Assembly (NCBI GenBank): GCA_025997155.1
Contig: BNUF01000049.1
Location: 1 to 14,983 of the forward strand
DNA length: 14,983 bases
Direction: 5' to 3'
Origin: Clostridia bacterium
GTDB lineage: Bacteria > Bacillota > Clostridia > Lachnospirales > WQUN01
Shown: positions 2,039 through 14,861 of the stretch, in pieces
Numbering within the stretch: the first letter of the stretch is position 1
How the letters are laid out: each line of letters begins with the position of its first letter
Program-made: the position numbers and the translations under genes
Notes under the pieces: generated by a model
Seen by the model: the letters and a program-made list of their open reading frames with translations, nothing else
What the model was told of the DNA's origin: nothing
The model's database searches: none

Positions 2039-2071
2039 ATTTTCACCTTTCTTATTGCGTTAGTCCTAATA

Positions 2072-2100
2072 ATCATATACGATAATGCAGGGTTTGTCAA
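2072..2100 (-). promoter_or_regulatory. Sigma-A type promoter of the integrase
   Basis: Read on the minus strand: -35 TTGACA (complement of 2095-2100, perfect), a 17-bp spacer, and -10 TATGAT (complement of 2072-2077, 5 of 6). It lies about 34 bp upstream of the integrase start codon. On the plus strand the overlapping word TTGTCA (2094-2099) could serve as a -35 for the rightward gene at 2138, though its -10 is poor. The two divergent promoters may share this box and compete. Confidence 0.75.
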
Positions 2101-2112
2101 CTCCTATATTTT

Positions 2113-2128
2113 TAATCTAGATTAGAAA
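2113..2128. repeat. Palindrome TAATCTAGATTA and first copy of a 15-bp repeat
   Basis: A perfect 12-bp palindrome (2113-2124) sits just upstream of the DUF6431-like gene. The 15-mer AATCTAGATTAGAAA starting at 2114 recurs exactly at 3284-3298. A palindrome in the divergent int/rightward intergenic region could be an operator. The second copy is inside a coding region, so this is only a suggestion. Confidence 0.35.
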
Positions 2129-2137
2129 GAGGGCTAT

Positions 2138-2455
2138 ATGGTTAGAGTCAAAGAGACAACTTGCCCGATTTGCGGAGGAAATTTGAAGTATTATGACAGC
2201 GTAAAGAGAATCGTTCGGTCAAAGGGGCGAAGTACGAAGTGGGTTTATATTCGCAGATTGAGATGTTGTGGTTGCAATACTTTACATAGAGAACTGCCAG
2301 ATTATATATTTCCATACAAACAATACGAAGCTGAGGTAATAAAAGGTGTATTGAGCGGCGTTATAACTTCTGATACTTTGGGATACGAAGATTACCCTTG
2401 CGAGATGACTATGTTTAGGTGGAGAAATTCGCAAAATTTACAAAGCCTATTATGA
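2138..2455 (+). CDS. DUF6431-like zinc-binding protein
   Basis: 105 aa. The N-terminus has a CPxCG zinc-ribbon knuckle (C9, C12), paired with C43/C44/C46 near residues 40-47 after a basic stretch. Then comes the conserved-looking block HRELPDYIFPYKQY and a C-terminal helical region ending MTMFRWR. This matches my recollection of the DUF6431 family, small zinc proteins common in Clostridia mobile elements, often near transposase or integrase genes; their function is not established. The AGAAAGAGGG ribosome site precedes ATG 2138. Its stop codon TGA is the last three bases of the first copy of the 26-bp promoter-like element. The first rightward gene from the int/2138 divergent region, so a regulatory DNA-binding role is possible but unproven. 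Confidence 0.7.
   Translation: MVRVKETTCPICGGNLKYYDSVKRIVRSKGRSTKWVYIRRLRCCGCNTLHRELPDYIFPYKQYEAEVIKGVLSGVITSDTLGYEDYPCEMTMFRWRNSQNLQSLL
2430..2455 (+). promoter_or_regulatory. Copy 1 of the 26-bp phage promoter-like element
   Basis: CGCAAAATTTACA, then 5 nt, then TATTATGA. It overlaps the last codons of the DUF6431-like gene and uses its stop codon as the final TGA. It lies 28 bp upstream of a 31-aa membrane-peptide gene. Consensus over seven copies: CGCGAAA-N3-ACA-N5-TnTTATGA. Confidence 0.7.
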
Positions 2456-2482
2456 GAAACTTATATTTTAGGAGGAATATAT

Positions 2483-2578
2483 ATGAAGGAGCACACGCGT
2501 GAGGCAATTGCTATAATTGTACAAGGGGCGATAATTGTCACTGGAATGGTACTTTTTTATAAATTATTCAAAATCTAG
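2483..2578 (+). CDS. 31-aa single-span membrane peptide
   Basis: A short ORF (ATG 2483 to TAG 2578) begins MKEHTREAIAIIVQGAIIVT and ends with a YKLFKI tail. A strong AGGAGG ribosome site (2470-2475) sits 7 nt upstream. Residues about 8-26 form one hydrophobic helix after a charged N-terminus, so a small inner-membrane peptide is expected. It is the only gene between promoter-like copy 1 and the following weak terminator, so it seems to be a one-gene transcription unit. I do not recognise a family. It might be a membrane-active phage peptide, but nothing shows this. Confidence 0.65.
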   Translation: MKEHTREAIAIIVQGAIIVTGMVLFYKLFKI

Positions 2579-2597
2579 TTATGAAGTTAATCACGGA

Positions 2598-2625
2598 AAG
2601 GTTCTAACAAAGACTCTTTCTTTTT
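2598..2625 (+). terminator. Weak intrinsic terminator
   Basis: AAGGTTCT and AGACTCTT pair with one mismatch and one wobble around an AACAA loop, followed by TCTTTTT. The sequence resembles the stronger terminator near 6022-6047, which shares AACAA, GACTCTTTCT. It would end the 31-aa peptide transcript. Confidence 0.45.
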
Positions 2626-2702
2626 GCCAAGTTTCCACCGACTTCGTTTTTACTTGCCGAAATTTCTAAGCTAGAATAGGTTTTGAGAGGAGGTGATTGT
2701 CA

Positions 2703-3005
2703 ATGGACGAAGTTATATTTGCAACTGGCTCTGTACCCGTTACGACGGCGGCTAAGATTTACGGGAAAGACGCGTCGTGGATTAGAGCTGGGATTATATC
2801 TGGGTGGCTGCAAATCGGAAACGCGACTAGAAACGGCAAACTCGTAACCAATGTCAAGGAGATTAACTCGAAGCGCGGAAGAATCAATTTTTATATTTCG
2901 CCGAAGTTACTTTGGAAAGCGACTGGTTATCTATGGAAGGGGAAAAGCGATAATGGGGACAACGACACGACCGATAATATCAGAGAAGAACAGATACTGG
3001 ATTGA
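2703..3005 (+). CDS. Conserved phage protein, possible DNA-binding regulator
   Basis: 100 aa from ATG 2703, chosen because GGAGG (2688-2693) lies 9 nt upstream; an in-frame TTG at 2697 is too close to it. The N-terminal half (VTTAAKIYGKDASWIRAGI and on) looks like a MerR/excisionase-type winged-helix segment; a central GRINFYISPKLLW block recalls a family I know from Clostridia prophages without an assigned function. The C-terminal 25 residues are polar and probably disordered. It overlaps the next gene by 53 bp, so the two are co-translated or coupled. A helix-turn-helix-like role is an inference from the pattern only. Confidence 0.65.
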   Translation: MDEVIFATGSVPVTTAAKIYGKDASWIRAGIISGWLQIGNATRNGKLVTNVKEINSKRGRINFYISPKLLWKATGYLWKGKSDNGDNDTTDNIREEQILD

Positions 3006-3372
3006 AAAGCACAGATATTACGAGTTGAAACATTTCTGCCTGCAATATCCGATATGGAAACAAGCACACGCGGCATTGGACGGATTTAGCAAACGTCCGA
3101 CAGACCTCTCGGCGGTTTCTCAAACAAACGATATAAGCGACCCTACACTCAAATGCGCGGAGGCTCGGTCGTTTTACCTTGAACGAATGGATTTGATTGA
3201 ACGAATCGCGAGAGATACGGACTTAAGTCTATCCAATTATATTTTGGAAGCGGTTACGGAGGGTGTTTCATATGAGCATTTGAAATCTAGATTAGAAATT
3301 CCCTGCTGTAAAGATGTTTACCACGAATTGTACAGACGGTTCTTTTGGTTGTTGAACAAGGAACGGCAGTAA
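2953..3372 (+). CDS. Phage protein, possible RinA/ArpU-like late transcription regulator
   Basis: 139 aa from ATG 2953. The frame is open further upstream (to 2851), but that part is only the shadow of the overlapping gene, and 2953 has a GGAAGGGG ribosome site. The N-terminus is basic and aromatic (EKHRYYELKHFCLQY, WKQAHAALDG). The C-terminus (about 90-139) has a helical block IERIARDTD, ILEAVTEGVSYEHLK, then IPCCKDVYHELYRRFFWLL. Such proteins are common in Clostridia prophages and look like the sigma-like RinA/ArpU regulators (conserved helix, then a recognition-helix-like EHLKSRL segment). That assignment is from memory and moderate at best. Its 3' end carries the second copy of the 15-bp AATCTAGATTAGAAA repeat. 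Confidence 0.65.
   Translation: MGTTTRPIISEKNRYWIEKHRYYELKHFCLQYPIWKQAHAALDGFSKRPTDLSAVSQTNDISDPTLKCAEARSFYLERMDLIERIARDTDLSLSNYILEAVTEGVSYEHLKSRLEIPCCKDVYHELYRRFFWLLNKERQ
3284..3298 (+). repeat. Second copy of the 15-bp AATCTAGATTAGAAA repeat
   Basis: Exact match to 2114-2128, inside the coding region of the preceding gene (codons for KSRLEI). It includes most of the palindrome. Confidence 0.4.
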
Positions 3373-3376
3373 CTCA

Positions 3377-3402
3377 CGCGAAAAATACATGCTCTATTAT
3401 GA
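3377..3402 (+). promoter_or_regulatory. Copy 2 of the 26-bp phage promoter-like element
   Basis: CGCGAAAAATACA, TGCTC, TATTATGA. It abuts the tRNA-like RNA: if the G of TTATGA (3401) is the first transcribed base, the transcript begins exactly at the base of the extended acceptor stem. A sigma-type reading, with TATTAT as -10, would start transcription about 6-8 nt later, inside that stem. Confidence 0.75.
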
Positions 3403-3479
3403 AGAAAGAGTTAGCTCAATGGGAGAGCTCTACGACAATAGTTGTAGTGGTATAGGTTCGAGTCCTGTACTCTTTCTTC
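3401..3479 (+). ncRNA. tRNA-like RNA with atypical anticodon loop
   Basis: The cloverleaf is clear. The acceptor stem is 7 bp (3405-3411 with 3469-3475), extended by GAAG/CTTC to 11 bp. The D-stem is GCTC/GAGC with loop AATGGGA. The T-stem is ATAGG/CCTGT with loop TTCGAGT. Elbow positions are right: T8, A14, the GG pair of the D-loop, and the TTC-A of the T-loop. The anticodon arm (3430-3447) is 5 bp, CTACG/TGTAG with one wobble, but the loop is 8 nt (ACAATAGT) and has no U33, so a normal anticodon cannot be read. The variable region is 4 nt. CCA is not encoded. A T-rich tail (TTTATTTTTTCT, 3480-3491) follows, so stem plus T-run may terminate. It may be a degenerate tRNA, a frameshift suppressor or a non-decoding tRNA mimic. 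Confidence 0.7.
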
Positions 3480-3492
3480 TTTATTTTTTCTA

Positions 3493-3577
3493 AGAATTTG
3501 AAATCTGTTTTACTCAGCCTTTGGGCATGTTTAATGATTTGCTGAAGTCGGCAAGACATTAAAATTGAACAGATTCT
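3493..3577 (+). ncRNA. Possible structured RNA (three-way-junction fold) downstream of the tRNA-like RNA
   Basis: This stretch has no gene. AATCTGTT (3502-3509) pairs perfectly with AACAGATT (3568-3575). Inside it are a small GCC/GGC hairpin (around 3517-3526), and TTTAATG (3530-3536) paired with CATTAAA (3557-3563), which encloses TTGCTG/CGGCAA (3539-3544/3549-3554) with an AAGT loop. The nested perfect stems are unlikely in plain spacer DNA. No known RNA family is recognised and no terminator T-run follows directly. Confidence 0.4.
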
Positions 3578-3595
3578 AAAAAATACCGTACGCAG

Positions 3596-3624
3596 GTGAC
3601 AATAAACTGTGTTATATTTGTAAT
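3596..3624 (+). promoter_or_regulatory. Candidate sigma-A promoter
   Basis: -35 GTGACA (3596-3601, 5 of 6), 17-bp spacer, -10 TGTAAT (3619-3624, 5 of 6). It lies 19 bp upstream of copy 3 of the 26-bp element, so the gene at 3702 may have two promoters. It is unsupported beyond the boxes. Confidence 0.4.
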
Positions 3625-3642
3625 GTGCAAAATTTTGGAATC

Positions 3643-3668
3643 CGCGACATGAACATGCTCTTTTATGA
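3643..3668 (+). promoter_or_regulatory. Copy 3 of the 26-bp phage promoter-like element
   Basis: CGCGACATGAACA, TGCTC, TTTTATGA. It shares the TGCTC spacer with copy 2 and lies 34 bp upstream of the gene at 3702. Confidence 0.72.
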
Positions 3669-3701
3669 AACCGAGTAAATTTGCTGAAAGGAGGACTTAA
3701 A

Positions 3702-4052
3702 ATGGAAAAAGCAATTATGGAGTTGTTAAGCGAGGAGATTAAGAAGGAAATTCGCGACATATCCGAACTTCAAGTGGGCAGCGAAGAAAAATCGAAAGCG
3801 ATTGAGGATCTGGCGAAACTTTACAAGATGAGAATCGATGAGACTGAAAACCAACGGGACAAAAACCGATTGGCGGAACAGGTCAAAGACCGATATTTCA
3901 AATTTGGAGTTGACGCCGCTGGAATCATATTACCGATGATATTCTACGCCGTTTGGTTGAATAAAGGATTTAAGTTTGAAGAAACAGGAACATTCACTTC
4001 GACGACATTCAGAGGATTGTTCAGCCGTTTTAGACCGACTAATAAAATTTAA
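3702..4052 (+). CDS. Single-span phage membrane protein of unknown function
   Basis: 116 aa from ATG 3702, which has AAGGAGG 6-7 nt upstream; the longer frame from TTG 3681 has no ribosome site. Residues 1-65 are highly charged and helical (coiled-coil-like). Residues about 68-87 (VDAAGIILPMIFYAVWL) form one membrane helix. A conserved-looking tail follows, FEETGTFTSTTFRGLFSRF, that I recall from other Clostridia phage membrane proteins. An N-terminus-inside topology is likely, with the charged domain in the cytoplasm. It is alone between promoter copy 3 and a strong terminator. Function unknown. Confidence 0.75.
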   Translation: MEKAIMELLSEEIKKEIRDISELQVGSEEKSKAIEDLAKLYKMRIDETENQRDKNRLAEQVKDRYFKFGVDAAGIILPMIFYAVWLNKGFKFEETGTFTSTTFRGLFSRFRPTNKI

Positions 4053-4068
4053 CGAAGTTTAAAGATTG

Positions 4069-4103
4069 AGAGGTTATGTTAAAAACGTAGCCTCTTAGTT
4101 TTT
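4069..4103 (+). terminator. Intrinsic terminator
   Basis: An 11-bp stem (4069-4079 with 4085-4095, two wobble pairs) with a 5-nt loop, followed by TAGTTTTT. It ends the 3702 unit and lies only 5 bp before promoter copy 4. Confidence 0.8.
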
Positions 4104-4107
4104 CTTG

Positions 4108-4133
4108 CGCGAAAATTACAAAGTATATTATGG
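4108..4133 (+). promoter_or_regulatory. Copy 4 of the 26-bp phage promoter-like element
   Basis: CGCGAAAATTACA, AAGTA, TATTATGG. It is the only copy ending TGG instead of TGA. It lies directly behind a terminator and 30 bp before the gene at 4164. Confidence 0.72.
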
Positions 4134-4163
4134 AAGGAAGACGATTATAAGGAGGAGATTTTT

Positions 4164-4394
4164 ATGAAATACTACAGTGTTAAAGACCTCGTTAAGATAG
4201 AAACCATTAAAAACACGATTAAATCAATCGGCGGTTGGGATAACATTAATTTATTGATAGATGTTGTTGTGGCTTGCGACGAATTTATAGAGGCTTTTGT
4301 GGCGGATTTTGACGCGGAGAAATTGGCAACTGGTGAGTCGGAACATAAAGCGAATCATTATTATAAAAAACTAAAAGACTTAGGGGCGATTTAG
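4164..4394 (+). CDS. Small soluble protein, unknown function
   Basis: 76 aa from ATG 4164 behind a strong AAGGAGGAG site. It is mixed-charge and helical (begins MKYYSVKDLVKIETIKNTIK), with a hydrophobic middle (about 29-47, INLLIDVVVACDEFIEAFV) that is amphipathic rather than a clear membrane span. A conserved family is not recognised. The stop codon lies inside the following terminator stem. It is the sole gene between promoter copy 4 and that terminator. Confidence 0.65.
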   Translation: MKYYSVKDLVKIETIKNTIKSIGGWDNINLLIDVVVACDEFIEAFVADFDAEKLATGESEHKANHYYKKLKDLGAI

Positions 4395-4409
4395 CCCTTT
4401 TGTTTTTTT
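4382..4409 (+). terminator. Intrinsic terminator overlapping the stop codon
   Basis: AGGGGC pairs with GCCCTT (one wobble) around loop GATTTA, followed by TTGTTTTTTTC. The 5' arm begins at the end of the 4164 gene. The next gene (4435) follows with only its ribosome site, so it depends on read-through. Confidence 0.75.
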
Positions 4410-4434
4410 CTTTTTGAAAGTAGAGGGAGTGATT

Positions 4435-4794
4435 ATGCGGTATCACTACGAAAAGCCAGATATTTATTTGTCGCTATATGGAGAGGTTTATAGTTGCGAA
4501 CATCCCGTTTATAACCGTTGCACTCTGTTTAAGATAGGCGATAATGGACTAGCGGTTATACAGCAACGATTCGATACTGGCACAAAGAATACGTGGTGGG
4601 GCGAAGTAGACACATGGCTTGCGGACGATTTATATTTACATTCGAGGTTTAAAAAGTATTTCGATGAACGAGCAGGAACTTGTACGTACGGATTATACCC
4701 GACTGTAACGGTCAGACAAATTATGTGGGCGTTGAAGATGAGTCCGATACCGAGAGAGCGTTGGGAGACTGTATTTGACAGGAGGCATATTTGA
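4435..4794 (+). CDS. Conserved phage protein of unknown function
   Basis: 119 aa from ATG 4435, preceded by GAGGGAG. A longer in-frame TTG start at 4414 sits inside the terminator T-run and is unlikely. It is soluble, with many aromatic residues: EKPDIYLSLYGEVYSCEHP near the N-terminus, a TWWGEVDTWLADDLYLH block in the middle, then YFDERAGTCTYGLYPTVTVR and a C-terminal WALKMSPIPRERWE. I recall this family as widespread in Clostridia phages and integrative elements without a known function. Two cysteines near residues 22 and 30 could bind metal. No promoter-like copy lies directly upstream. Confidence 0.75.
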   Translation: MRYHYEKPDIYLSLYGEVYSCEHPVYNRCTLFKIGDNGLAVIQQRFDTGTKNTWWGEVDTWLADDLYLHSRFKKYFDERAGTCTYGLYPTVTVRQIMWALKMSPIPRERWETVFDRRHI

Positions 4795-4800
4795 ACTTTA

Positions 4801-4826
4801 CGCAGAATCTACATTGCCTTTTATGA
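4801..4826 (+). promoter_or_regulatory. Copy 5 of the 26-bp phage promoter-like element
   Basis: CGCAGAATCTACA, TTGCC, TTTTATGA. If transcription starts at the G of TTATGA (4825), the message begins GAGGAG, which is the ribosome site of the next gene at its extreme 5' end. A later sigma-type start would lose it. Confidence 0.7.
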
Positions 4827-4839
4827 GGAGATGATAGAT

Positions 4840-5013
4840 GTGAAAATTGCTGAAATGGCACTATCGGCTATATTGAAGAAAGGAATTCTTTATGAAGCTA
4901 GGAATGTAGATACAAATATCGAAATTCCTGTAAACATAGGGAATAAGGAAAGCAATGTGGTAGTTAATATCAAATGTGAACACATGACATTGCGAATCGA
5001 AAAAGAGGAATAG
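4840..5013 (+). CDS. Small protein, unknown function
   Basis: 57 aa from GTG 4840. The alternative ATG 4831 touches GAGGAG (4825-4830) with no spacing, whereas GTG 4840 lies 9 nt behind it, so GTG is preferred. The sequence begins MKIAEMALSAILKKGILYEA and continues with beta-rich alternation (IEIPVNIG, NVVVNIKCEHMTLRIE). It is probably a soluble small fold. I do not recognise it. It is a one-gene unit between copy 5 and a terminator. Confidence 0.6.
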   Translation: MKIAEMALSAILKKGILYEARNVDTNIEIPVNIGNKESNVVVNIKCEHMTLRIEKEE

Positions 5014-5036
5014 TCCGGAAAGGGCTTTTCCTTTTT
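5012..5036 (+). terminator. Intrinsic terminator
   Basis: AGTCC pairs with GGGCT (one wobble) around GGAAA, followed by TTTCCTTTTTAT. It ends the 4840 unit. The next gene starts 20 bp later with its own AGGAGG. Confidence 0.65.
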
Positions 5037-5055
5037 ATATTTAGGAGGATTAATT

Positions 5056-5856
5056 ATGATTAAACTTAACGCGTTGAAACGTTCTGTTCCGACTATCTTA
5101 ACTTTTGTCGGAGTCGCCGGGGTTGTTGCGACAACCATACTGACCGCGAAAGCCACGCCAAAGGCAATGGTTTTGTTGAAAGAAGCCGAATACGAGAAGG
5201 GCGAAAAACTTACTAAATCAGAGGTTGTGAAGTCGGTTTGGCGTTGCTATATTCCTGCGGCGGTTGTCGGATTATCTACGATTTCTTGCATAGTTGGCGC
5301 GAATGTACTTAACAGGAAATATCAAACATCTTTAGCGAGTGCTTACGCTCTTTTACATCAGTCGTATCATAAGTACAGGACTGCCGCGAATTCCGTATAC
5401 GGCGACGACGCTGACTCCAAGATTCTGTTGAGTGTAACAAAAGATGCGTATGTGTCGGCGGAAGGACTGTTGATATATGACCCGGAGTTAGATACGGCAA
5501 ACGAAAAAGTGTTGTTTTATGATATGTATTCGCAAAGATATTTCAAATCTACTATGGCGAACGTCATGAACGCGCAGTACCACGCGAACAGAAATCTATC
5601 TTTACGCGGCGAAATTTGTGTTAATGAGTTTTATGAGTTTTTGGGGCTTGACGGAATTAAAGGCGGAGATGTCATTGGTTGGTCGTTTGAAGAATTTATG
5701 GATTTTGGGATTTTATGGCTTGATTTTGAAAATGTCCACACTACAATGGAAGACGGAATTGAATGTTACATTATATCCTCAATGGTTGAACCTGAAGTTT
5801 TAGATTATAACGATTATTTAAACCTCGGCACGCGAGATTCACAAACTATATTATGA
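5056..5856 (+). CDS. DUF6353-like membrane protein, paralogue 1
   Basis: 266 aa from ATG 5056 with AGGAGG upstream. Two membrane helices: about 12-32 (ending before KATPKA) and about 65-86 (CYIPAAVVGLSTISCIVGA). A soluble C-terminal domain (about 90-260) follows, containing the block SQRYFKSTM, an NEFYEFLGL-like motif and an IGWSFEEF motif shared with the other copies. I recognise the family as DUF6353, common in Clostridia phages; its function is unknown. The two helices place the N-terminal part in the membrane, with the C-terminal domain probably in the cytoplasm. It follows a terminator at 5012-5036 but has no promoter-like element of its own. Its stop codon is the last TGA of copy 6. Confidence 0.8.
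   Translation: MIKLNALKRSVPTILTFVGVAGVVATTILTAKATPKAMVLLKEAEYEKGEKLTKSEVVKSVWRCYIPAAVVGLSTISCIVGANVLNRKYQTSLASAYALLHQSYHKYRTAANSVYGDDADSKILLSVTKDAYVSAEGLLIYDPELDTANEKVLFYDMYSQRYFKSTMANVMNAQYHANRNLSLRGEICVNEFYEFLGLDGIKGGDVIGWSFEEFMDFGILWLDFENVHTTMEDGIECYIISSMVEPEVLDYNDYLNLGTRDSQTIL
5831..5856 (+). promoter_or_regulatory. Copy 6 of the 26-bp phage promoter-like element
   Basis: CGCGAGATTCACA, AACTA, TATTATGA. It overlaps the 3' end of the DUF6353-like gene, whose stop TGA forms its last three bases, as in copy 1. Confidence 0.72.
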
Positions 5857-5872
5857 AAAGAGGCGATGCTTT

Positions 5873-6013
5873 ATGAATGATAAATTGATTAAAGTTATTA
5901 AAGTAGCGACACCCGTTCTCGGCATTGGATTAGCGCTTGTGAGAGAATGGTTGGAAGATAGAAAGATAGACGAAAAAATCGCGGAAGCAGTCAAAGAAGC
6001 ACTTGCCGAATGA
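5873..6013 (+). CDS. 46-aa small protein with hydrophobic segment
   Basis: ATG 5873 to TGA 6013 encodes 46 aa beginning MNDKLIKVIKVATPVLGIGL. A hydrophobic stretch (about 11-23) follows a basic N-terminus; the rest is a charged amphipathic helix (EWLEDRKIDEKIAEAVKEAL). It could be a peripheral or single-span membrane peptide. The GAAAAGAGGCG site lies upstream. It is the only gene between copy 6 and a terminator. No family is recognised. It lies too short for ordinary gene finders. Confidence 0.6.
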   Translation: MNDKLIKVIKVATPVLGIGLALVREWLEDRKIDEKIAEAVKEALAE

Positions 6014-6019
6014 GAAGGG

Positions 6020-6047
6020 AGGAGTCCAAACAAGGACTCTTTCTCTT
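6020..6047 (+). terminator. Intrinsic terminator
   Basis: GAGTCC (6022-6027) and GGACTC (6034-6039) form a perfect stem around AAACAA, followed by TTTCTCTT; further wobble pairs extend it outward. Confidence 0.75.
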
Positions 6048-6082
6048 CGCGTTGAGCGTTATATTTGAAAGGGTGAATTGAA

Positions 6083-6853
6083 ATGGCTAAATCAAATGTA
6101 TCAACTATTATCAAAAGCGTAGGCGCGGCGATGAGAACGCATAGTCTGGAGATACTTACGGGAATCGGTATTGTAGGTATGATTACGACAACGGTTATGG
6201 CGGTTAGAGCAACGCCGAAAGCACTTGCACTTATTGACGAAAAGAAAAAAGAAATCGGCGAGGATAAACTAACCGCCGCCAGAACTGTTAAGGTTGCTTG
6301 GAAATGTTATATTCCGTCAGCGGTAACAGGTGTCGCTTCCGTAGCTTGCTTGATTGGAGCGGGTTCGGCGAACGCCAGACGCAACGCGGCGTTGGCGGCG
6401 GCATACACTATCTCCGATTCCGCTTTCAAAGAGTATAAGAAAAAAGTTGTTGAAACTGTCGGCGATAAAAAAGAACAAGATGTGAGAGACGCTATCGCGA
6501 AAGATAAAGTTGAACACAACCCTGTTAGCAACTGTGAAGTCATCATAACCGAGAAAGGGAACACTCTGTGTTATGATGTGCTGTCGGGAAGATATTTCAA
6601 ATCCGATATAGAGTTATTGAAAAGAGCGGTAAACGAAACGAACCGAGATTTACTATCCGAACGATTTATATCTTTGAACGATTTCTATTACAACATCGGA
6701 TTGACTGAAACTACAATCGGGCGGGACATAGGCTGGTGCGTTGACGACGGATTTATCGATTTGAATTTCAGTTCTCAGTTGGCGGAGGACGGAACACCGT
6801 GTCTTGTATTGAACTATATCGTTGCTCCTAGATATGATTATCTGCGCCGTTGA
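6083..6853 (+). CDS. DUF6353-like membrane protein, paralogue 2
   Basis: 256 aa from ATG 6083 behind GAAAGGGTG. This is the copy closest to the family type as I recall it. Membrane helices about 24-43 (before RATPKA) and 75-95 (CYIPSAVTGVASVACLIGAG) are followed by a charged helix with repeated Ala/Lys (about 98-150), then a domain containing CEVIITEKGNTLCYD, SGRYFKSD, a LNDFYYNIGL motif and IGWCVDDGFIDLNF. Function unknown. It sits behind a terminator and has TTATATTT before its ribosome site. Compared with copy 1 it keeps the KATPKA and KCYIP motifs but diverges elsewhere, so the duplication is old. Confidence 0.85.
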   Translation: MAKSNVSTIIKSVGAAMRTHSLEILTGIGIVGMITTTVMAVRATPKALALIDEKKKEIGEDKLTAARTVKVAWKCYIPSAVTGVASVACLIGAGSANARRNAALAAAYTISDSAFKEYKKKVVETVGDKKEQDVRDAIAKDKVEHNPVSNCEVIITEKGNTLCYDVLSGRYFKSDIELLKRAVNETNRDLLSERFISLNDFYYNIGLTETTIGRDIGWCVDDGFIDLNFSSQLAEDGTPCLVLNYIVAPRYDYLRR

Positions 6854-6859
6854 CGGATA

Positions 6860-6885
6860 CGCGAAATAAACACGGTCTTTTATGA
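6860..6885 (+). promoter_or_regulatory. Copy 7 of the 26-bp phage promoter-like element
   Basis: CGCGAAATAAACA, CGGTC, TTTTATGA. It is the last copy seen in the window, between the second DUF6353-like gene and the gene at 6920. Confidence 0.74.
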
Positions 6886-6919
6886 AGAACAGTGTTGATA
6901 TTTGAAAGGGGAAATTAAA

Positions 6920-7150
6920 ATGGATACTAACGAAAGTTTAGACGTTACAATCGAAACGATTGCGGAAAACGGAAGTTTGCTGAAAATGGCGGCTGGAGTC
7001 GGTGTAGGTGTTCTTGTAGGTGTACTAGCTTACAAGTACGCCGTTGAGCCGATAATAGCCAAAATCAAAGAGCGGAAAAAATCACTTGCCGATGATTACA
7101 ACGAGTATGTCGAGACGGACGAAGAACCAGAACTGAACGTTATCAAATAG
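6920..7150 (+). CDS. Single-span membrane protein, unknown function
   Basis: 76 aa from ATG 6920, the codon following GAAAGGGG; an in-frame TTG at 6902 has no site. The acidic N-terminus (1-20) is followed by a glycine/valine-rich membrane helix (about 23-44, MAAGVGVGVLVGVLAYKYAV), then a charged tail. It is probably inner-membrane, with the glycine-rich helix able to pack against others (speculative). It is the only gene between copy 7 and the terminator at 7169. Confidence 0.7.
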   Translation: MDTNESLDVTIETIAENGSLLKMAAGVGVGVLVGVLAYKYAVEPIIAKIKERKKSLADDYNEYVETDEEPELNVIK

Positions 7151-7168
7151 GACAATGTTTAACAAGCT

Positions 7169-7206
7169 GGGAGATACCTTTAACAAGGTGTTTTCCCTTT
7201 TGTATT
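7169..7206 (+). terminator. Intrinsic terminator
   Basis: A 12-bp stem (7169-7180 with 7185-7196, three wobble pairs, TAAC loop) is followed by CTTTTGTATTTT. Confidence 0.7.
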
Positions 7207-7208
7207 TT

Positions 7209-7304
7209 GGAGCGTGACACCCTAATCAAACCCGCTTGGCACATATTTCACACAACGGTTGTGAAGTGAAACGCCATATTACAACGCCGCAGGACACACG
7301 CTCC
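7209..7304 (+). ncRNA. Candidate structured leader RNA
   Basis: GGAGCGTG (7209-7216) pairs perfectly with CACGCTCC (7297-7304), enclosing 80 nt. Inside, TTTCAC (7246-7251) and GTGAAA (7266-7271) close a hairpin whose inner arm is ACAA/TTGT with a CGG loop and a GAA bulge. The remainder is unpaired in my reading. It lies between a terminator and the next gene, so it may be a 5' leader of the 7343 operon or a free RNA. I do not recognise a riboswitch class. Confidence 0.45.
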
Positions 7305-7342
7305 TGATGCAACATAGCTAGTAAGACGAAAGGGGAAGTAAA

Positions 7343-7921
7343 ATGGAACAATACAGTTCAAACTCTCATAAGTCCAAAGAGGAAAAGAAAGTAGAAAAAG
7401 TTATTTCAGGTTTGGCAAGACAAAAAAAGAAAGGTGAGTTTCGCAAAATTGTAGATTGTTTTATCGCGGAAGACTTGCATGACATAAAGTCTTATATTTT
7501 GAAAGATGTAATCGCTCCAGCAGTTAAAAAAGCGGTTTGGGACGTTGTTACAAACGGAGCGGATATGCTTATTTACGGGGAAACGAATCATACAAAAAAA
7601 TCGTCAAATGTATCTTACAGAAACTACTATGATAAGTCTGACACTCGCAGAGATTATCATGCACCAGTGGTAAAAACAGGGTTTAGCTTTGATGATATTA
7701 TCTTGGATACCCGAGGAGAGGCGGAGGGCGTTCTGGAACGAATGGACGAGCTTATTTCCGCTTACGGTATTGTTAGTGTCGCTGATTTGTATGATTTGGT
7801 AGGAGTGACGGGCGACTACACTTACAATAAGTACGGCTGGACTGATATTCACAGCGCCAGCGTAATGAGAGTGCGTGACGGATACATGTTGAAGTTACCT
7901 AAGGCACTTCCAATCAATTAA
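7343..7921 (+). CDS. Conserved phage protein of unknown function
   Basis: 192 aa from ATG 7343 behind AAAGGGGAAG. It is soluble, with a basic N-terminal region (1-35), an acidic middle with the DVVTNGADMLIYGE segment, a polar linker around 86-108, and a well-defined C-terminal domain (about 112-192) with GFSFDDIILDTRGEAEGVL and YNKYGWTDIHSASV. I recall this family from other Clostridia phages but know no function. It begins the operon that runs, with gaps or overlaps of at most about 26 bp after each gene, through the replication genes. Confidence 0.75.
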   Translation: MEQYSSNSHKSKEEKKVEKVISGLARQKKKGEFRKIVDCFIAEDLHDIKSYILKDVIAPAVKKAVWDVVTNGADMLIYGETNHTKKSSNVSYRNYYDKSDTRRDYHAPVVKTGFSFDDIILDTRGEAEGVLERMDELISAYGIVSVADLYDLVGVTGDYTYNKYGWTDIHSASVMRVRDGYMLKLPKALPIN

Positions 7922-7933
7922 GGAGATGATTAT

Positions 7934-8854
7934 ATGAAATCGAAAATTATGAGCAATGTAAGCAAAACGGTTTACAAAGTTGGTTTTCAACTGAGGAAAT
8001 ACAGCCCCGAGATACTTGCGGTTGTAGGGGTTGTCGGAATCGTCGCGGGAACTGTTATGGCGTGCAAAGCAACGACCAAAGCAAGTGAAGTTCTTGAAGA
8101 TATGAAAGAAGATATTTCAAAGATTAACGATTGCGCGGAGAATGAGGAGTTGCAAGAATCCAACAAATACACAGAAGAAGACCGCCAGAAAGATAAGATT
8201 ATCGTTTATACCAAAACTACCGTTAAACTCGCGAAGATTTACGCTCCCGCCGTAGCGATTGGTATATTTTCTGTTGGCAGTCTTTTGATGTCTAACCGCA
8301 TTCTCCGTAAGCGCAACATCGCGTTTGCCGCCGCTTACACCGCTGTTGACAAGGGGTTCAAGGAGTACAGAAAACGTGTCGCCGAGCGTTTCGGAGAAAA
8401 TGTTGAACGAGAGATTAAATACAACATTTCCGAAGATATCGCCATTAATGAAAACGGTAGTGAAACTACAAAGCCAGTTGCTAATATAGCGTATGACAGC
8501 AGTGTGTACGCTCGTTTCTTTGACGCAAGCAGCGGACATTATGAAAAAGACCCCGAGTATAATCTGATGTTTCTGAAAGCGCAACAGAATCACGCAAACG
8601 ATTTGCTTAAAGCGCGAGGTTATCTGTTTCTGAACGAGGTATACCAAATGCTTGATATTCCGATAACAAAAGCGGGGCAGGTTGTAGGTTGGCTTTATGA
8701 CGCCAAAAACCCAAGCGGCGACAACTACGTTGACTTCGGTATATTCAATTTGGGAACAAATTGTGATTTTGTAAACGGCTATGAGACTGTTATATTGCTA
8801 GATTTCAACGTTGACGGAAACATATGGAATAAGGACTTTACTTCCGTGAAGTAA
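7934..8854 (+). CDS. DUF6353-like membrane protein, paralogue 3
   Basis: 306 aa from ATG 7934 (AAGGAGATGAT site). Two membrane helices, about 27-44 (before KATTKA) and 101-121 (YAPAVAIGIFSVGSLLM). The stretch between them is longer and more acidic than in copies 1 and 2. Its domain carries VYARFFDASSGHYEKD, a FLNEVYQMLDIP motif and VVGWLYDA, the equivalents of the motifs in the other paralogues. The region before the second helix is rich in charged residues. Function unknown. It is the most diverged copy and is in the continuous operon rather than in the element-controlled units. Confidence 0.8.
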   Translation: MKSKIMSNVSKTVYKVGFQLRKYSPEILAVVGVVGIVAGTVMACKATTKASEVLEDMKEDISKINDCAENEELQESNKYTEEDRQKDKIIVYTKTTVKLAKIYAPAVAIGIFSVGSLLMSNRILRKRNIAFAAAYTAVDKGFKEYRKRVAERFGENVEREIKYNISEDIAINENGSETTKPVANIAYDSSVYARFFDASSGHYEKDPEYNLMFLKAQQNHANDLLKARGYLFLNEVYQMLDIPITKAGQVVGWLYDAKNPSGDNYVDFGIFNLGTNCDFVNGYETVILLDFNVDGNIWNKDFTSVK

Positions 8855-10117: not shown

Positions 10118-10123
10118 ATCGGA

Positions 10124-12838
10124 ATGGTGGATTTCCTGTTGGTGTCGGCACGCAGTACAAAACGCGGTTCAATAGAAATCTATCCGAAGTTCATAATCAA
10201 AAAAAGTTCCGATTTGATGATTCGAGGCGGCGACTTCTACGCTATCTGGATTGAGGAATGCGGTTTGTGGTCTACCGATGAGCAGGACGTTATACGGCTT
10301 ATAGACCGTGAGTTGGATAGATACGCGGAAGAACAGCGCAAGCAAACAGATTCCGATATTAGAGTTATGCATATGTGGGACGCTGAATCTGGAATGATTG
10401 ATATTTGGCATAAATACTGTCAACGACAGTTAAGAGATTCATTTCAGATGTTGGACGAGAAACTTATATTTTCAAACACTATCACAACTAAGAAAGATTA
10501 CGCAAGTAAAAAGCTAACTTATCCCTTGGAAGCGGGTGATTTTCCTGCCTACGATAAGCTCTTATCAACTTTATATTCTCCCGAGGAACGGACAAAAATC
10601 GAGTGGGCTATCGGAGCGGTTGTTTCAGGCGAATCAAAGAAGTTGCAGAAGTTCATTGTTCTGTACGGAGCTGGCGGAACTGGTAAATCAACAGTGCTTA
10701 ACATAATTCAGCAATTGTTCGAGGGCTATTTTTCAATGTTTAACGCGAAAGATGTTGGCTCTGCAACCAACGCTTTTGCTCTGGAATCATTTAGAAGTAA
10801 TCCGCTTGTGGCGATTCAGCATGACGGTAATTTATCAAAAATCGAAGACAACTCAAGACTCAACAGTTTAGTATCTCATGAACTTATGACGGTAAACGAG
10901 AAGTTCAAGTCAACATATACAAACAGTTTCAAATGTCTTCTAGTCATGGGTACAAACTATCCTGTGAAGATTACAGACGCTAAATCAGGTATCATACGAA
11001 GATTAATTGATATTTCTCCTTCTGGCAACACGATACCAACCAAGGAGTATCACAAACTTGTTAAACAAGTCGAGTTCGAGCTTGGAGCTATTGCTTATCA
11101 TTGTAAGGCTTTATATTTAAATAACACGAGTAAATACGATGATTATATTCCGATAACAATGCTCGGAGCGTCTAACGATTTCTACAATTTCGTCATTGAT
11201 TCGCATCATGTGTTCAAGAAAGAAGACGGAACTACGATGAAAGCCGCGTGGGAGATGTACAAGACTTACTGTGACGAGGCGAAAGTGTCGTTTCCATTTT
11301 CTCAAAGAGTTTTCAAAGAGGAACTTAAAAACTATTTTCGCGACTACAAAGAACGGTTTAACTCTGAAGACGGTGTTCGTGTTCGGAGTTATTACAGCGG
11401 ATTTCGCGCTGAAAAGTTTGAAGTAAGGATAGTCAGCGAAAAAGATGATACTTACGTAAAGGAGTTGATTAAGTTTAACTACACAAAATCTATATTTGAT
11501 ACAGAGTACGGTGATTGTCTCGCTCAATATGCTACGCCGAAAGATATTCCGTCTAAAAAATGGGACGAAGTTGCATCAACTTTACAAGAGTTAGACACAT
11601 CAAGAGTTCACTATGTTAAAGTACCTGAAAATCACATCGTTATTGATTTTGATATTTCGGACGAACACGGTAATAAGTGCTTACAGAAGAACATCGAAGA
11701 AGCGAGTAAATGGCCTCCTACCTACGCGGAACTTAGCAAAAGCGGCGCAGGAATACACCTGCATTATATTTATCTCGGAGATGTTGCGAATCTCAGCCGC
11801 GTATATGACAACCATATAGAAGTTAAAGTGTTCAGCGGTAAAAGCTCATTACGGCGGAAATTATCCAAATGCAACAACTTACCAATCGCGGCAATCAGCT
11901 CAGGTTTACCTCTGAAAGGAGACAACAAAATGGTAAATTTCGAGGCAATAACAAGTGAAAAGACGATTAGAGCTTTGATTAAGCGCAATCTCAACAAAGA
12001 AATACACGCTGGGACTAAACCAAGTATCGACTTCATCTGCAAGATATTAGAGGACGCATATTTAAGTGATGTGAATTACGATATTACTGATATGCGAAAC
12101 TCTGTATTGTCATTCGCGGCGAACAGCACTAATCAAGCCGATTACTGTATCAAACTTGTCAACAAAATGCGGTTTAAATCAGAAGAATCTTCTGAGGCAG
12201 TAACGAACGAAGAATCTAAACTTATATTTTACGATGTTGAAGTCTTCCCGAACCTGTTTGTTGTTTGCTGGAAAATCGAGGGCGAGGGTAAACCAGTAGT
12301 GCGTATGATTAACCCAACTCCAACTGAAATTGAAGAACTGATACGATTCAGACTGGTCGGTTTCAACTGCCGTCGATACGACAATCATATTTTGTACGCG
12401 AGACTTATGGGATACAGCAACGAACAACTTTACAACTTGTCACAAAAGATTATCAGCGGTAGCCCGAACTGTTTTTTCGGAGAAGCGTACAATATATCTT
12501 ATACCGATGTATACGATTTCTCAAGTAAAAAACAGTCTCTCAAAAAGTTTGAAATCGAACTGGGTATTCATCACAAAGAACTTGGTATGCCTTGGGACGA
12601 ACCTGTTCCCGAAGAACTGTGGTTCAAGGTTGCGGAGTATTGCGACAACGATGTAATAGCAACCGAATCTACATTCAACGCTCGCAAAGCCGATTTCTTA
12701 GCTCGGCAGATTCTTGCGGATTTAGCAGGCATGACAGTCAATGACACAACTAACACTCTCACTACCAAGATTATATTTGGGAATGAGAAACACCCGAAGT
12801 TGGTTTACACAGATTTAGCTACAGGGGAACAAAGTTAG
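10124..12838 (+). CDS. SF3 helicase / AEP-like primase / family B polymerase 3'-5' exonuclease fusion
   Basis: 904 aa. D5/P4-type SF3 helicase: an N-terminal region (about 1-180), Walker A GAGGTGKST at 182-190, then the motif B region LVAIQHDGN (228-236, D234), with a TNYP-type motif C following. AEP-like primase: DFD motif at 508-510, SGxGxH motif (S540-H545) and the HIEVKV strand (564-569). Exonuclease: D704-x-E706 (FYDVEVFPN), N748 and D753, Y839-x3-D843 (YCDND). These are the three family B exonuclease motifs. The protein stops after TDLATGEQS, where homologues run on into the palm domain, so it is the front part of a split polymerase. It would unwind DNA, make primers and proofread for the polymerase encoded downstream. 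The order helicase, primase, exonuclease is unusual. ATG 10124 has AAAGGGG about 12 nt upstream. Confidence 0.85.
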   Translation: MVDFLLVSARSTKRGSIEIYPKFIIKKSSDLMIRGGDFYAIWIEECGLWSTDEQDVIRLIDRELDRYAEEQRKQTDSDIRVMHMWDAESGMIDIWHKYCQRQLRDSFQMLDEKLIFSNTITTKKDYASKKLTYPLEAGDFPAYDKLLSTLYSPEERTKIEWAIGAVVSGESKKLQKFIVLYGAGGTGKSTVLNIIQQLFEGYFSMFNAKDVGSATNAFALESFRSNPLVAIQHDGNLSKIEDNSRLNSLVSHELMTVNEKFKSTYTNSFKCLLVMGTNYPVKITDAKSGIIRRLIDISPSGNTIPTKEYHKLVKQVEFELGAIAYHCKALYLNNTSKYDDYIPITMLGASNDFYNFVIDSHHVFKKEDGTTMKAAWEMYKTYCDEAKVSFPFSQRVFKEELKNYFRDYKERFNSEDGVRVRSYYSGFRAEKFEVRIVSEKDDTYVKELIKFNYTKSIFDTEYGDCLAQYATPKDIPSKKWDEVASTLQELDTSRVHYVKVPENHIVIDFDISDEHGNKCLQKNIEEASKWPPTYAELSKSGAGIHLHYIYLGDVANLSRVYDNHIEVKVFSGKSSLRRKLSKCNNLPIAAISSGLPLKGDNKMVNFEAITSEKTIRALIKRNLNKEIHAGTKPSIDFICKILEDAYLSDVNYDITDMRNSVLSFAANSTNQADYCIKLVNKMRFKSEESSEAVTNEESKLIFYDVEVFPNLFVVCWKIEGEGKPVVRMINPTPTEIEELIRFRLVGFNCRRYDNHILYARLMGYSNEQLYNLSQKIISGSPNCFFGEAYNISYTDVYDFSSKKQSLKKFEIELGIHHKELGMPWDEPVPEELWFKVAEYCDNDVIATESTFNARKADFLARQILADLAGMTVNDTTNTLTTKIIFGNEKHPKLVYTDLATGEQS

Positions 12839-12865
12839 TTTGTCATATAAGAAAGGAGAATTGAA

Positions 12866-13300
12866 ATGGATATTGTTGGAGAGTTCAGGTTTTACAACCG
12901 TTATATTCCGATTTACGGAAGCGTTGAAGAACCGCTATTTTTAGCAGTAGATGTAGCAAGAGCAATCGATTACTCAACAGGAAACACCGCGCATATGCTC
13001 GAACAGGTTGACCCCGATGAAAAAGTTTTTACTCGTACTATTACTACGAGCAAAAGAGGTGGCAGAAGCAGAGACGCGTGGTTTCTCACCGAAAACGGGC
13101 TGTACGAAGTCCTGTTTCAATCCCGCAAACCCGTTGCTAAGATATTCAAAAGTATTGTGAAACAAACACTTAAAGATATTCGAAAAGAACATGATTGGTC
13201 ATTCGATTGGTTCGAGCAAGAAGCGGTTAAATACGCTATGGATTCCGAAACAGGCGAGTACAGACCGATTGATATTTTCGGCGATTTTACGGACGATTAA
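12866..13300 (+). CDS. Bro-N domain protein (antirepressor-like)
   Basis: 144 aa from ATG 12866 behind AAAGGAG. The Bro-N fold is recognisable over about residues 1-105: EFRFYNRYIPIYG, PLFLAVDVARAIDY, AWFLTENGLYEVLFQSRKPVAK and a following helix. Phage antirepressors and some DNA-binding regulators carry this domain. Here there is no recognisable second domain such as KilA-C or ANT; the C-terminal 35 residues are charged and possibly disordered. It sits between the two parts of the split polymerase, 27 bp after the first, so it may have come in with the homing endonuclease. Confidence 0.8.
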   Translation: MDIVGEFRFYNRYIPIYGSVEEPLFLAVDVARAIDYSTGNTAHMLEQVDPDEKVFTRTITTSKRGGRSRDAWFLTENGLYEVLFQSRKPVAKIFKSIVKQTLKDIRKEHDWSFDWFEQEAVKYAMDSETGEYRPIDIFGDFTDD

Positions 13301-13335
13301 TATTGATAGGTGTTTCGGAAAAGAGGTGGTGATTT

Positions 13336-13947
13336 ATGCAAGAAGAATGGAAAGACATTTGTAATTTTATCGGATATCAGGTAAGTAATCAAGGACGAGT
13401 TAGAACGTTTTGGAGGAGGAAACATTACCTTACAGGATATGGAAGTTATAATTATTTGTCTGATAGTCCGAAAATGATGTCGCAATCAGATGACGGCAAC
13501 GGCTATATGAAACTAATGTTATACAATAAAAATGACGGGAAAAGATATTGCAAAAAAGTCCACCGTTTAGTTGCTGAGGCTTTTATAGAAAATGACGACA
13601 CGAGAAAAGATACTGTAGACCATATCGTATCTGGTTCGTCTGGAAAATTAAACAATTCGGTAAATAATCTTCGCTGGGTATCAAGACGAGAAAACATAAA
13701 GAAAGCCTATAAAGACGGAATGTGTGATGAGAGGATTAGAAAATCCAAAAAACCGATAATGGCTACTGATTTATGGAATGGTGAAGTGACATATTTTCCA
13801 AGCATTGGCGACGCGGCTGTTTGTTTGGATATAGATCGTTCAACGATATCTCATATTCTTAACGGAGATCTCGAGCGAACCGCCAGATATACTTTCGAGT
13901 ATGCCCAAAGAGAGGAGCGATTGTTATATGGAACGTCCGATTATTAA
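13336..13947 (+). CDS. HNH homing endonuclease (NUMOD4-HNH-NUMOD1 type)
   Basis: 203 aa from ATG 13336 (AAGAGGTGGTGAT site). NUMOD4-like N-terminus (about 3-25, EEWKDICNFIGYQVSNQGRV). HNH core: H76 in VHRLVAEAFI, D95-H96 in VDH, N107 and N111 in LNNSVNNLRWV, N120. NUMOD1-like C-terminus (about 139-190). This order is typical of phage HNH homing endonucleases, which cut DNA at a target gene and promote copying of themselves. The ORF runs out in another frame over the start of the polymerase palm gene: the last residues, LLYGTSDY, are translated from the duplicated sequence. Its location inside the broken polymerase gene suggests it targets that gene. Confidence 0.9.
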   Translation: MQEEWKDICNFIGYQVSNQGRVRTFWRRKHYLTGYGSYNYLSDSPKMMSQSDDGNGYMKLMLYNKNDGKRYCKKVHRLVAEAFIENDDTRKDTVDHIVSGSSGKLNNSVNNLRWVSRRENIKKAYKDGMCDERIRKSKKPIMATDLWNGEVTYFPSIGDAAVCLDIDRSTISHILNGDLERTARYTFEYAQREERLLYGTSDY

Positions 13948-14044
13948 CTCATTCCTTGGGTATGAATTTGTCATAGACGAGCGATTGTTATATGGAACGT
14001 CCGATTATTAACTCATTCCTTGGGTATGAATTTGTCATAGACGA
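13915..14044 (+). repeat. Perfect 64-bp tandem duplication
   Basis: Bases 13917-13980 are repeated exactly as 13981-14044, with two more matching bases before each copy (66 bp overall). The unit holds the end of the HNH ORF and the first 17-18 codons of the polymerase palm gene. Because 64 is not a multiple of 3, the first copy's polymerase start (ATG 13928, with AGAGGAG upstream) runs into a stop after 27 codons. Only the second copy's ATG 13992 leads into the full palm gene, and its ribosome site is weaker. Confidence 0.95.
13928..14011 (+). pseudogene. 27-aa ORF from the first copy of the duplicated polymerase start
   Basis: ATG 13928 has AGAGGAG (13911-13917) 10 nt upstream, the better start. 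The ORF gives MERPIINSFLGYEFVID then shifts into the duplicated bases and ends LLYGTSDY at TAA 14009-14011. It is a by-product of the duplication and overlaps the real ATG 13992 by 20 nt. Ribosomes finishing here could restart at 13992. Confidence 0.6.
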
Positions 14045-14861
14045 AAACAACAAACCTCATAATATGTATCGAGGCGTTGACATCGGCTTTGGCGGTTATA
14101 TTTACGCTAAACCAGGAATGTACACCAATGTTGCAGTTCTTGATTCTGCCAGTCATCATCCGACATCTATAATATGTATGAATTGTTTCGGAGATTATAC
14201 GACGAATTACAAAGACCTCCTTGATGCCCGAATCGCGATAAAACACGGGGAATTTGATAAAGTTAAAACCATGCTCGGAGGAAAATTGAACAAGTATATT
14301 TCCGAAAACGATTCGATTAAAGACCTCGCTTACGCGTTAAAAATAGCCTTGAATTCAACTTACGGTTTAACCAGTGCGAGTTTCGAGAATCCATTCCGTG
14401 ATGTCAGAAATAAAAACAACATCGTCGCTTTACGCGGAGCTTTATTTCTTAAAACACTTCACGACGCGGTGGTAGAAAAAGGCTTCTCCGTTATAGCGTG
14501 CAAGACTGATTCGATAAAAATCCCAGACGCTACTCCTTATATTATCAAATTCGTTCAGGATTTTGGGGCTGAATACGGGTATACGTTTGAACACGAAGAG
14601 ACCTATGAAAAAATGTGCTTAGTTAATGCGGCTGATTTTGTAGCGAAGATTAAAGACGGCAAACACGCGGGAGAATGGACGGCAACTGGCGTTCAGTTTC
14701 AGATTCCATACGTATTCAAAAAGTTGTTTTCAAAAGAACCTATCGAGTTTGGAGACATGTGCGAAACTAAATCCGTCAGCACAGCTTTATATTTAGATAT
14801 GGGTACAGAACACTATCGCTTTGTCGGAAAGGTTGGGCAATTCTGTCCGATAAAAGGGTAA
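13992..14861 (+). CDS. Family B DNA polymerase, palm part (split gene)
   Basis: 289 aa from ATG 13992. Family B motifs in order: motif A LDSASHHPTSI (catalytic D51), motif B KIALNSTYG (K117, N121, Y124, G125), motif C KTDSIKI (D173; the usual DTDS has K in place of the first Asp). Together with the exonuclease on the 904-aa protein it would make the replicative polymerase; on its own it lacks the exonuclease. The start is at the second copy of the tandem duplication, with a poor ribosome site, so expression may rely on restart from the overlapping 13928 ORF or the HNH ORF. The ORF stops after VGQFCPIKG, where homologues, as I recall them, continue for perhaps 80 or more residues, so a second interruption is possible. 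Confidence 0.85.
   Translation: MERPIINSFLGYEFVIDENNKPHNMYRGVDIGFGGYIYAKPGMYTNVAVLDSASHHPTSIICMNCFGDYTTNYKDLLDARIAIKHGEFDKVKTMLGGKLNKYISENDSIKDLAYALKIALNSTYGLTSASFENPFRDVRNKNNIVALRGALFLKTLHDAVVEKGFSVIACKTDSIKIPDATPYIIKFVQDFGAEYGYTFEHEETYEKMCLVNAADFVAKIKDGKHAGEWTATGVQFQIPYVFKKLFSKEPIEFGDMCETKSVSTALYLDMGTEHYRFVGKVGQFCPIKG

Follow-up and report, generated by a model that had tools for sequence, protein, structure and literature searches.

Introduction

YonO, encoded by Bacillus phage SPbeta, is a single-chain, DNA-dependent phage RNA polymerase with distant homology to the multisubunit enzymes; the report describing it has the late genes transcribed as a single operon with a single mapped start, the promoter sequence left undetermined and a need for helper factors left open (Forrest et al. 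2017, PMC5467207). Other intergenic motifs have been described in actinophages, including an 18-bp motif in 12 copies in cluster EC, 30-bp repeats in cluster EI and the SAS/ESAS motifs, in a paper whose section on cluster EL (Camille included) mentions no motif of the kind described here (PMC7302621). The present work concerns a 26-bp element that occurs seven times in a 14,983-base stretch of DNA, contig C49 of a 3.05-Mb metagenome-assembled genome (MAG, 77% complete), hereafter the window. We consider it highly probable, from sequence comparison, that all seven copies serve as promoters for the single-chain two-barrel RNA polymerase encoded by the same phage.

Results

A repeated element on one strand of the window

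A search of all 14,983 bases with the pattern CGCGAAANNNACANNNNNTNTTATGA, allowing up to 3 mismatches, returned seven matches, all on the plus strand (Table 1). Dinucleotide shuffles of the window gave 0.11 matches on average and two at most, and none of 200 reached seven, bearing out the seven same-strand copies of the preliminary description. The layout is CGCGAAA-N3-ACA-N5-TNTTATGA, with identical internal spacing throughout. The positions described as invariant (CGC, the seventh A, ACA, the T, TTAT and the G) indeed do not vary among the seven copies; the consensus as originally written is exact in two of them (3377 and 6860), with one mismatch in four and two in copy 4801, and its final A is present in six copies and lost in copy 4, which ends in TGG. 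In two copies, 1 and 6, the TGA does double as a stop codon, and every copy sits, as proposed, before a short open reading frame (ORF) or RNA, six preceding ORFs and one a tRNA-like gene. In those six the start codon lies 6-36 nt past the element's G, distances obtained partly by eye (ORF starts 2483, 3702 and 6920 by eye; 4164, 4831 and 5873 from the ORF list). Across the window's own MAG the element pattern occurs 16 times at up to 2 mismatches, against none for the reversed pattern.

A two-barrel RNA polymerase on the adjoining contig

Faecalibacterium phage FP_oengus is matched by the genes of the window (integrase, DUF6353, primase-helicase-DNA polymerase), and the window is one contig of a related phage. 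A second contig, C46, very probably continues the genome of this phage, because the DNA polymerase, which ends at FP_oengus residue 1233 in the window, resumes on C46 with residues 1232-1311. C46 carries four further copies of the element and an RNA polymerase gene (Table 1).

The DFDGD sequence of this polymerase, the DxDxD metal-binding motif of the second barrel, is invariant in 18 of 18 and in 35 of 35 aligned sequences, and the family has a QDE-1-like catalytic fold. On these features the C46 enzyme is a single-chain two-barrel (double-psi beta-barrel) polymerase of QDE-1 type, predicted to carry out template-dependent RNA synthesis, and the family has helix-turn-helix (HTH) segments at both the N-terminus and the C-terminus. 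The protein matches PHROG 4291, named 'RNA-dependent RNA polymerase', over residues 4-890 with 1,317.6 bits. Homologues of its FP_oengus counterpart gp55 occur in 251 of 50,697 phage records, and 7,997 polymerase homologues, everything that a wider search passed on, were scored; PDB sequence searches returned HTH-like or chance matches only, and no polymerase. The original suggestion of a promoter for a single-subunit phage RNA polymerase is supported by the sequence evidence, with the refinement that the enzyme is of the two-barrel rather than the T7-like kind. The T7-like check that had been proposed found no PF00940 in the MAG, a negative limited by the MAG's incompleteness and by a control that matched in none of 14 genomes.

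Some variation in the element may be related to the polymerase. The second N-terminal HTH has an arginine in 17 of 18 aligned relatives and a threonine in Lactococcus phage P078, whose copies keep ACA and TATAATG and have TTT in place of CGC in eight of eight, with TTC in one further copy. In Lactococcus phage P1046 neither the TATAATGAGA form nor a convincing match to the CGC forms was found; ten same-strand matches of a CTATAGTAG-like form were found, with none on the opposite strand, and these have CAC for CGC in six of ten and CGC in none. Changes in the CGC box may track changes in the second N-terminal HTH, although two lineages make this a lead only.

Distribution of the element and the polymerase

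A relaxed pattern was run over 23 whole phage records, 18 with the polymerase and five, including SPbeta, lacking it by profile search. Plus-strand matches were found in 15 of the 18 polymerase-bearing phages, the other three being Scap1, Serenabean and P078, and, SPbeta apart, in none of the four phages without it; SPbeta gave one match at up to 2 mismatches, the same as its reversed control. In total the polymerase-bearing phages gave 100 plus-strand matches, one on the opposite strand and four for the reversed pattern. A position weight matrix (PWM) built from 112 seed sites carried out the motif search that had been recommended for the element and its relatives, and found 2-16 plus-strand elements in each of the 18 polymerase-bearing phages and none in three phages without the polymerase, with two minus-strand matches overall and 0-2 matches per phage for a column-reversed control. 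The test is partly circular for phages other than Scap1 and P078, which gave seven and four matches, respectively, despite contributing no seeds. MT835495 was scanned with the PWM over 60 of its 69.8 kb, and FP_Mushu was searched by pattern only.

The 18 phages include those of Faecalibacterium, Arthrobacter, Gordonia, Streptomyces and Lactococcus, and the pieces bearing the element span GC contents from 31 to 61%; several actinophages have a form near CGCANAAATTACACGNCCTATAATG, with AGACCCCTACGAAAGGA and then a start codon behind it. The layout is kept across hosts of two phyla, Firmicutes and Actinobacteria. Listeria phages, considered as natural controls with a DNA polymerase and no RNA polymerase, were rejected because the sole listed match was partial and 29% identical.

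Metagenomic contigs in IMG/VR gave a similar picture. The exact pattern occurs in at least 120 stretches, against four for its reverse. The 80 stretches that were listed include 48 distinct contigs 20 kb or more in length. Of these, 40 encode the polymerase, as compared with none of 35 control contigs (33 chosen with an arbitrary 15-mer, the other two with the reversed pattern). All element matches lie on a single strand in each of the 48, and reversed-pattern matches were absent. A second sample was blind to both element and polymerase, and consisted of 22 contigs, hand-picked according to rank and length out of 75 whose genes include one for a relative of a contig G007 protein that is, from its position, putatively ThyX-like. 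At up to 3 mismatches, at least five elements occurred on one strand in 11 of the 12 contigs with a full-length polymerase (G089 also has two on the opposite strand), whereas none of the ten contigs without it exceeded one element per strand; element matches numbered 121 and reversed-pattern matches nine. Three of these ten have weak, distant polymerase matches and no element.

Predicted start site and tRNA-like genes

The genes that follow the element most closely bear on where transcription might begin. Among 21 distinct genes for tRNAs or tRNA-like RNAs in the loci analyzed, 15 start 1-8 nt past the element's G (at 1, 2, 2, 2, 3, 3, 3, 3, 3, 3, 4, 5, 6, 6 and 8 nt), against 0.45% under random placement. 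At a sigma -10 hexamer transcription starts 6-8 nt beyond the hexamer; counted from TATTAT, such a start would fall within the tRNA in 11 cases, whereas a start at the G suits all 15. This arrangement disfavors a sigma -10 and points to a +1 at the G of TTATG or at the next purine. Across 518 distinct window-type sites, positions +2 to +4 are purines in 93-97%, as the downstream bases of the seven copies had suggested, and position -5 holds A or T in 91%; the pattern left these columns free, but the contigs had been fetched with an A at +2. Identical sites were collapsed in the 21-tRNA and 518-site counts, as in the 506-site counts below.

The tRNA-like RNA behind copy 2 has a predicted stem that pairs from G3401 onward, a 7-bp stem at the anticodon position closed by a 4-nt loop, no CCA and a U-rich 3' end. 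A family of such RNAs directly follows the element, in the window, in L151 (2935-3006), in L131, L136-L138, L141 and L144, and elsewhere. Its members retain the D- and T-arms and have a lengthened acceptor stem, a U-rich 3' end and no CCA; several, judged by eye and from ARAGORN calls of 'tRNA-???', have a stem with just a 4-nt loop at the anticodon position. They are possibly decoys or mimics.

Gene context of the elements

A Shine-Dalgarno sequence with a start codon lies within 200 nt downstream of 414 of 506 related sites (median 34 nt), compared with 324 of 1,012 random positions, and a hairpin with a T-tract lies within 80 nt upstream of 219 of the 506, compared with 74 of the 1,012. The claim that copies often follow a terminator is weak within the window alone, where positions 2050-7400 hold six terminator-like sites against 3.9 in shuffles, and is carried by the larger set. 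Some actinophage elements (L203 at 7018 and its neighbors) are flanked by inverted words, AGGGGTCT immediately 5' and AGACCCCT immediately 3', which may form the terminator of the unit before them.

Thirteen of 17 phages have one element 907-1,588 nt ahead of the polymerase gene, where it precedes the VRR-Nuc/Cas4/polymerase genes; several of these elements are weak (11.5-18 bits). No element was found within 3 kb upstream of the gene in Miek, P078 or D_HF4_2, nor in BitterVaud, whose record begins 1.3 kb before it. In FP_oengus the polymerase-upstream element (27684) is the last strong one before the late genes, and the roughly 30-kb late region beyond it has weak matches only (36344 and 58187). 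A similar, GAAGGGATAGAATAC-like leader follows the element upstream of the VRR-Nuc/Cas4/polymerase genes in L207 (13242), L210 (11316), L224 (12597), L204 (11545) and L151 (27684), and looks like a regulated leader RNA.

Table 1. Positions of the element copies and of other features in the window and on contig C46.
Feature	Position	Strand	Remarks
Element copy 1	2430..2455	+	predicted +1 = G2454; TGA = stop of ORF 2138-2455; precedes 31-codon ORF 2483-2578
Element copy 2	3377..3402	+	predicted +1 = G3401; immediately 5' of tRNA-like gene
Element copy 3	3643..3668	+	predicted +1 = G3667; precedes ORF 3702-4052
Element copy 4	4108..4133	+	predicted +1 = G4132; precedes ORF 4164-4394
Element copy 5	4801..4826	+	predicted +1 = G4825; precedes ORF 4831-5013; leader very short
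Element copy 6	5831..5856	+	predicted +1 = G5855; TGA = stop of ORF 5056-5856; precedes ORF 5873-6013
Element copy 7	6860..6885	+	predicted +1 = G6884; precedes ORF 6920-7150
Predicted small tRNA-like RNA	3401..3485	+	ARAGORN 3404-3477; Rfam tRNA 47 bits, 3405-3476; minimum free energy -30.6, z -3.76
Terminator-like hairpin and T-run	4382..4409	+	end of copy-4 gene
Terminator-like hairpin and T-run	5012..5036	+	3' of copy-5 gene
Terminator-like hairpin and T-run	7169..7206	+	3' of copy-7 gene
Three DUF6353 genes (5056-5856, 6083-6853, 7934-8854)	5056..8854	+	core family of these phages
Interrupted primase/helicase-DNA polymerase gene	10118..14852	+	matches residues 1-912 and 929-1233 of the FP_oengus DNA polymerase
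RNA polymerase gene	C46:6277-8928	minus	892 aa; 53% identical to FP_oengus gp55

Other features of the window

A second strand-polar word is present in the window. [TG]ATATTT (in a wider form BATATTY) occurs between 907 and 14788 with 39 copies on the plus strand and two on the minus strand, and TATATTT alone 28 times on the plus strand and never on the minus strand, with 5.5 expected. The copies are spaced roughly every 380 nt, also within genes, and three plus-strand copies lie inside the minus-strand integrase gene; the idea that BATATTY belongs to a ribosome-binding region was rejected by the counts inside genes. Among the relatives counted (L151, L157, L163, L164, L194, L203 and L211-L213), ATATTT is strongly polar in GC-rich ones (15/0 in Scap1, 0.2 expected; 21/0 in the Spectropatronm piece L203, 0.7 expected). 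It is not polar in the counted pieces of Circum (19/41), P078 (22/37) and D_HF4_2 (1/1), and no polarity was found in counted pieces of three phages without the polymerase.

Two genes, one Bro-N and one of NUMOD/HNH type, interrupt the DNA polymerase gene at 12866-14042, and within this interruption about 63 bp appear, by eye, to be tandemly duplicated at roughly 13916-14041. An upstream ORF (126-695) has an HxH...D pattern (MVHNHNNVSDFSLPD), possibly that of a JAB/MPN or RadC-type domain, which it resembles.

Discussion

The strand bias of the element, its placement before start codons and tRNA-like genes, the purine-rich start, the spread over phages of two phyla and the polymerase on the adjoining contig together make it very likely that the element is a promoter, and the two-barrel polymerase of the phage is its likeliest reader. 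Co-occurrence alone does not single this enzyme out, since it is one of many core genes common to all 17 phages compared (a set that left out MT835495, the window and C46); the assignment is made because it is a promoter-type enzyme with DNA-binding segments.

In the model that we propose, the fixed element, numbered from -24 to a predicted +1, comprises a CGC box, an A/T tract, an ACA box and TATNATG and is followed by a purine-rich stretch; transcription would start at the G of TTATG or the following purine. The polymerase itself may read the element through its N-terminal and C-terminal HTH segments, with catalysis by the DFDGD barrel. An element some 0.9-1.6 kb ahead of the polymerase gene would provide positive feedback and may also feed late genes; the remaining copies would drive short, separately terminated units encoding small proteins and the tRNA-like RNA. 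We are inclined to extend this model, with less assurance, to a very large phage lineage, that of the homologues scored above, in which a self-sufficient two-barrel polymerase with its own HTH segments would read one ancient promoter, its layout kept across phages of Firmicutes and Actinobacteria, and fire arrays of short terminated units, including tRNA-like RNAs that start within a few bases of +1 and of which several, by eye, lack a normal anticodon loop.

Several observations weigh against the assignment to this polymerase. Eight of the 48 element-bearing IMG/VR contigs have no polymerase detectable even by profile search. One of them (G020) is an otherwise unrelated phage with a single, chance-like copy, and three (G025, G028 and G034) end before the expected polymerase position; G019 and G038 extend about 9 kb past the helicase, and G024 about 15 kb, without a polymerase module. 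G007 reaches the terminase gene without a polymerase, only residues 3-658 of the DNA polymerase being found, and counts as a genuine exception if it is not a degraded prophage. Conversely, G097 has the polymerase and a single element at up to 3 mismatches. G093 and G094 share element sequences, so that related contigs are not independent. Six of the 21 tRNA genes have no adjoining element, and the tRNA-like genes could be transcribed by readthrough from upstream. As to the variation of the CGC box, a strict link between the HTH arginine and CGC is weakened because P1046 keeps the arginine yet has no CGC copy.

The host RNA polymerase, aided by an activator that the phage encodes, could instead read the element, with TATTAT/TATAAT serving as a sigma -10 and CGC...ACA as an activator site that replaces the -35, as in the middle promoters of T4, where a phage activator stands in for the -35. 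Actinophage copies carry a perfect TATAATG, with which a host -10 is compatible in sequence, a -35 is unnecessary given an activator, and sigma-70-like matches are in excess at 2050-7400 of the window (23 against 12.7 in shuffles). However, only copy 6 of the seven overlaps such a match in a loose scan (-35/-10 16-18 nt apart), and there with a poor first hexamer, TCGGCA, which supports the original view of a contiguous block rather than a -35/-10 pair; copies in the window and FP_oengus include TTTTAT and CTTTAT, a sigma -10 start would cut into most of the adjoining tRNAs, and no other HTH protein was noticed among those of the core families that were scanned. We regard host transcription as unlikely.

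A binding site for a repressor or regulator, or an element for replication or packaging, is a still poorer candidate. The stoperators of cluster A and CA phages are likewise multiple, one-directional and mostly intergenic (PMC13313380), but the elements described here closely precede start codons and tRNA 5' ends, frequently just behind terminator-like sequence, and are reduced to weak matches in the late region of FP_oengus. An RNA-level element, either a site of processing or a leader structure in transcripts from promoters farther upstream, would agree with the nearby ribosome-binding site and the downstream tRNA-like RNAs, but we give it hardly any credence, as the elements often lie behind terminator-like sequences and the conserved block ends at the purine start, as expected of a DNA element read from upstream.

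In the literature searched (PMC5467207, PMC8270828, PMC10770324, PMC5513430, PMC7302621, PMC13313380 and PMC8758107 included, subscription papers falling mostly outside its scope) we found no promoter motif reported for these phages. The element is likely to represent a promoter of the phage RNA polymerase type for a family without previously found promoters in that literature. A candidate promoter is now tied to a named polymerase family in cultured phages, namely Arthrobacter phage Circum, Microbacterium phage Camille, P078 and FP_oengus, and with the same signal in phages of very different bacteria, promoter recognition, start site and factor needs are directly testable in vitro. If the assignment is right, the labels 'RNA-dependent RNA polymerase' and 'HTH protein' would be corrected on about 250 phage records, and the system would offer a new orthogonal promoter-polymerase pair and a natural model for a two-barrel enzyme that locates promoters without a separate sigma factor.

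Comparison with known systems

The EC, EI and SAS/ESAS motifs of actinophages are likewise short, asymmetric or start-associated and confined to small intergenic regions, but their sequences and phage clusters differ (PMC7302621). The Thermus phage P23-45 has a non-virion RNA polymerase, gp64, and a virion one, gp96, which use other promoters, described as GC-rich and AT-rich (PMC10770324); the P23-45 chain has about 595 residues, against 892 in the C46 enzyme, and the HTH ends of the latter fall outside the aligned region.

YonO resembles the C46 family in being a single-chain phage polymerase that serves a set of phage genes, a role that for the C46 family is predicted. The two show no sequence similarity (hhalign probability 3.4% over 20 columns; profile A1 has no SPbeta match), a further point on the negative side, YonO being the best-studied functional analogue. 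The PWM has no match in SPbeta 54-66 kb, the yonK and yonO region, and we claim no YonO promoter.

By its two-barrel fold the phage polymerase is a single-chain relative of the fungal RNA-silencing polymerases. QDE-1 and RDR2 are eukaryotic, unlike the phage-encoded C46 enzyme, and are not known to use sequence-specific promoters. A T7 promoter is contiguous, about 24 bp long and ends at a purine start, a layout that the present element shares, although the T7 RNA polymerase has a fold unrelated to the two-barrel one. The name of PHROG 4291 implies RNA templates, whereas the present evidence suggests a DNA-dependent polymerase that reads promoters.

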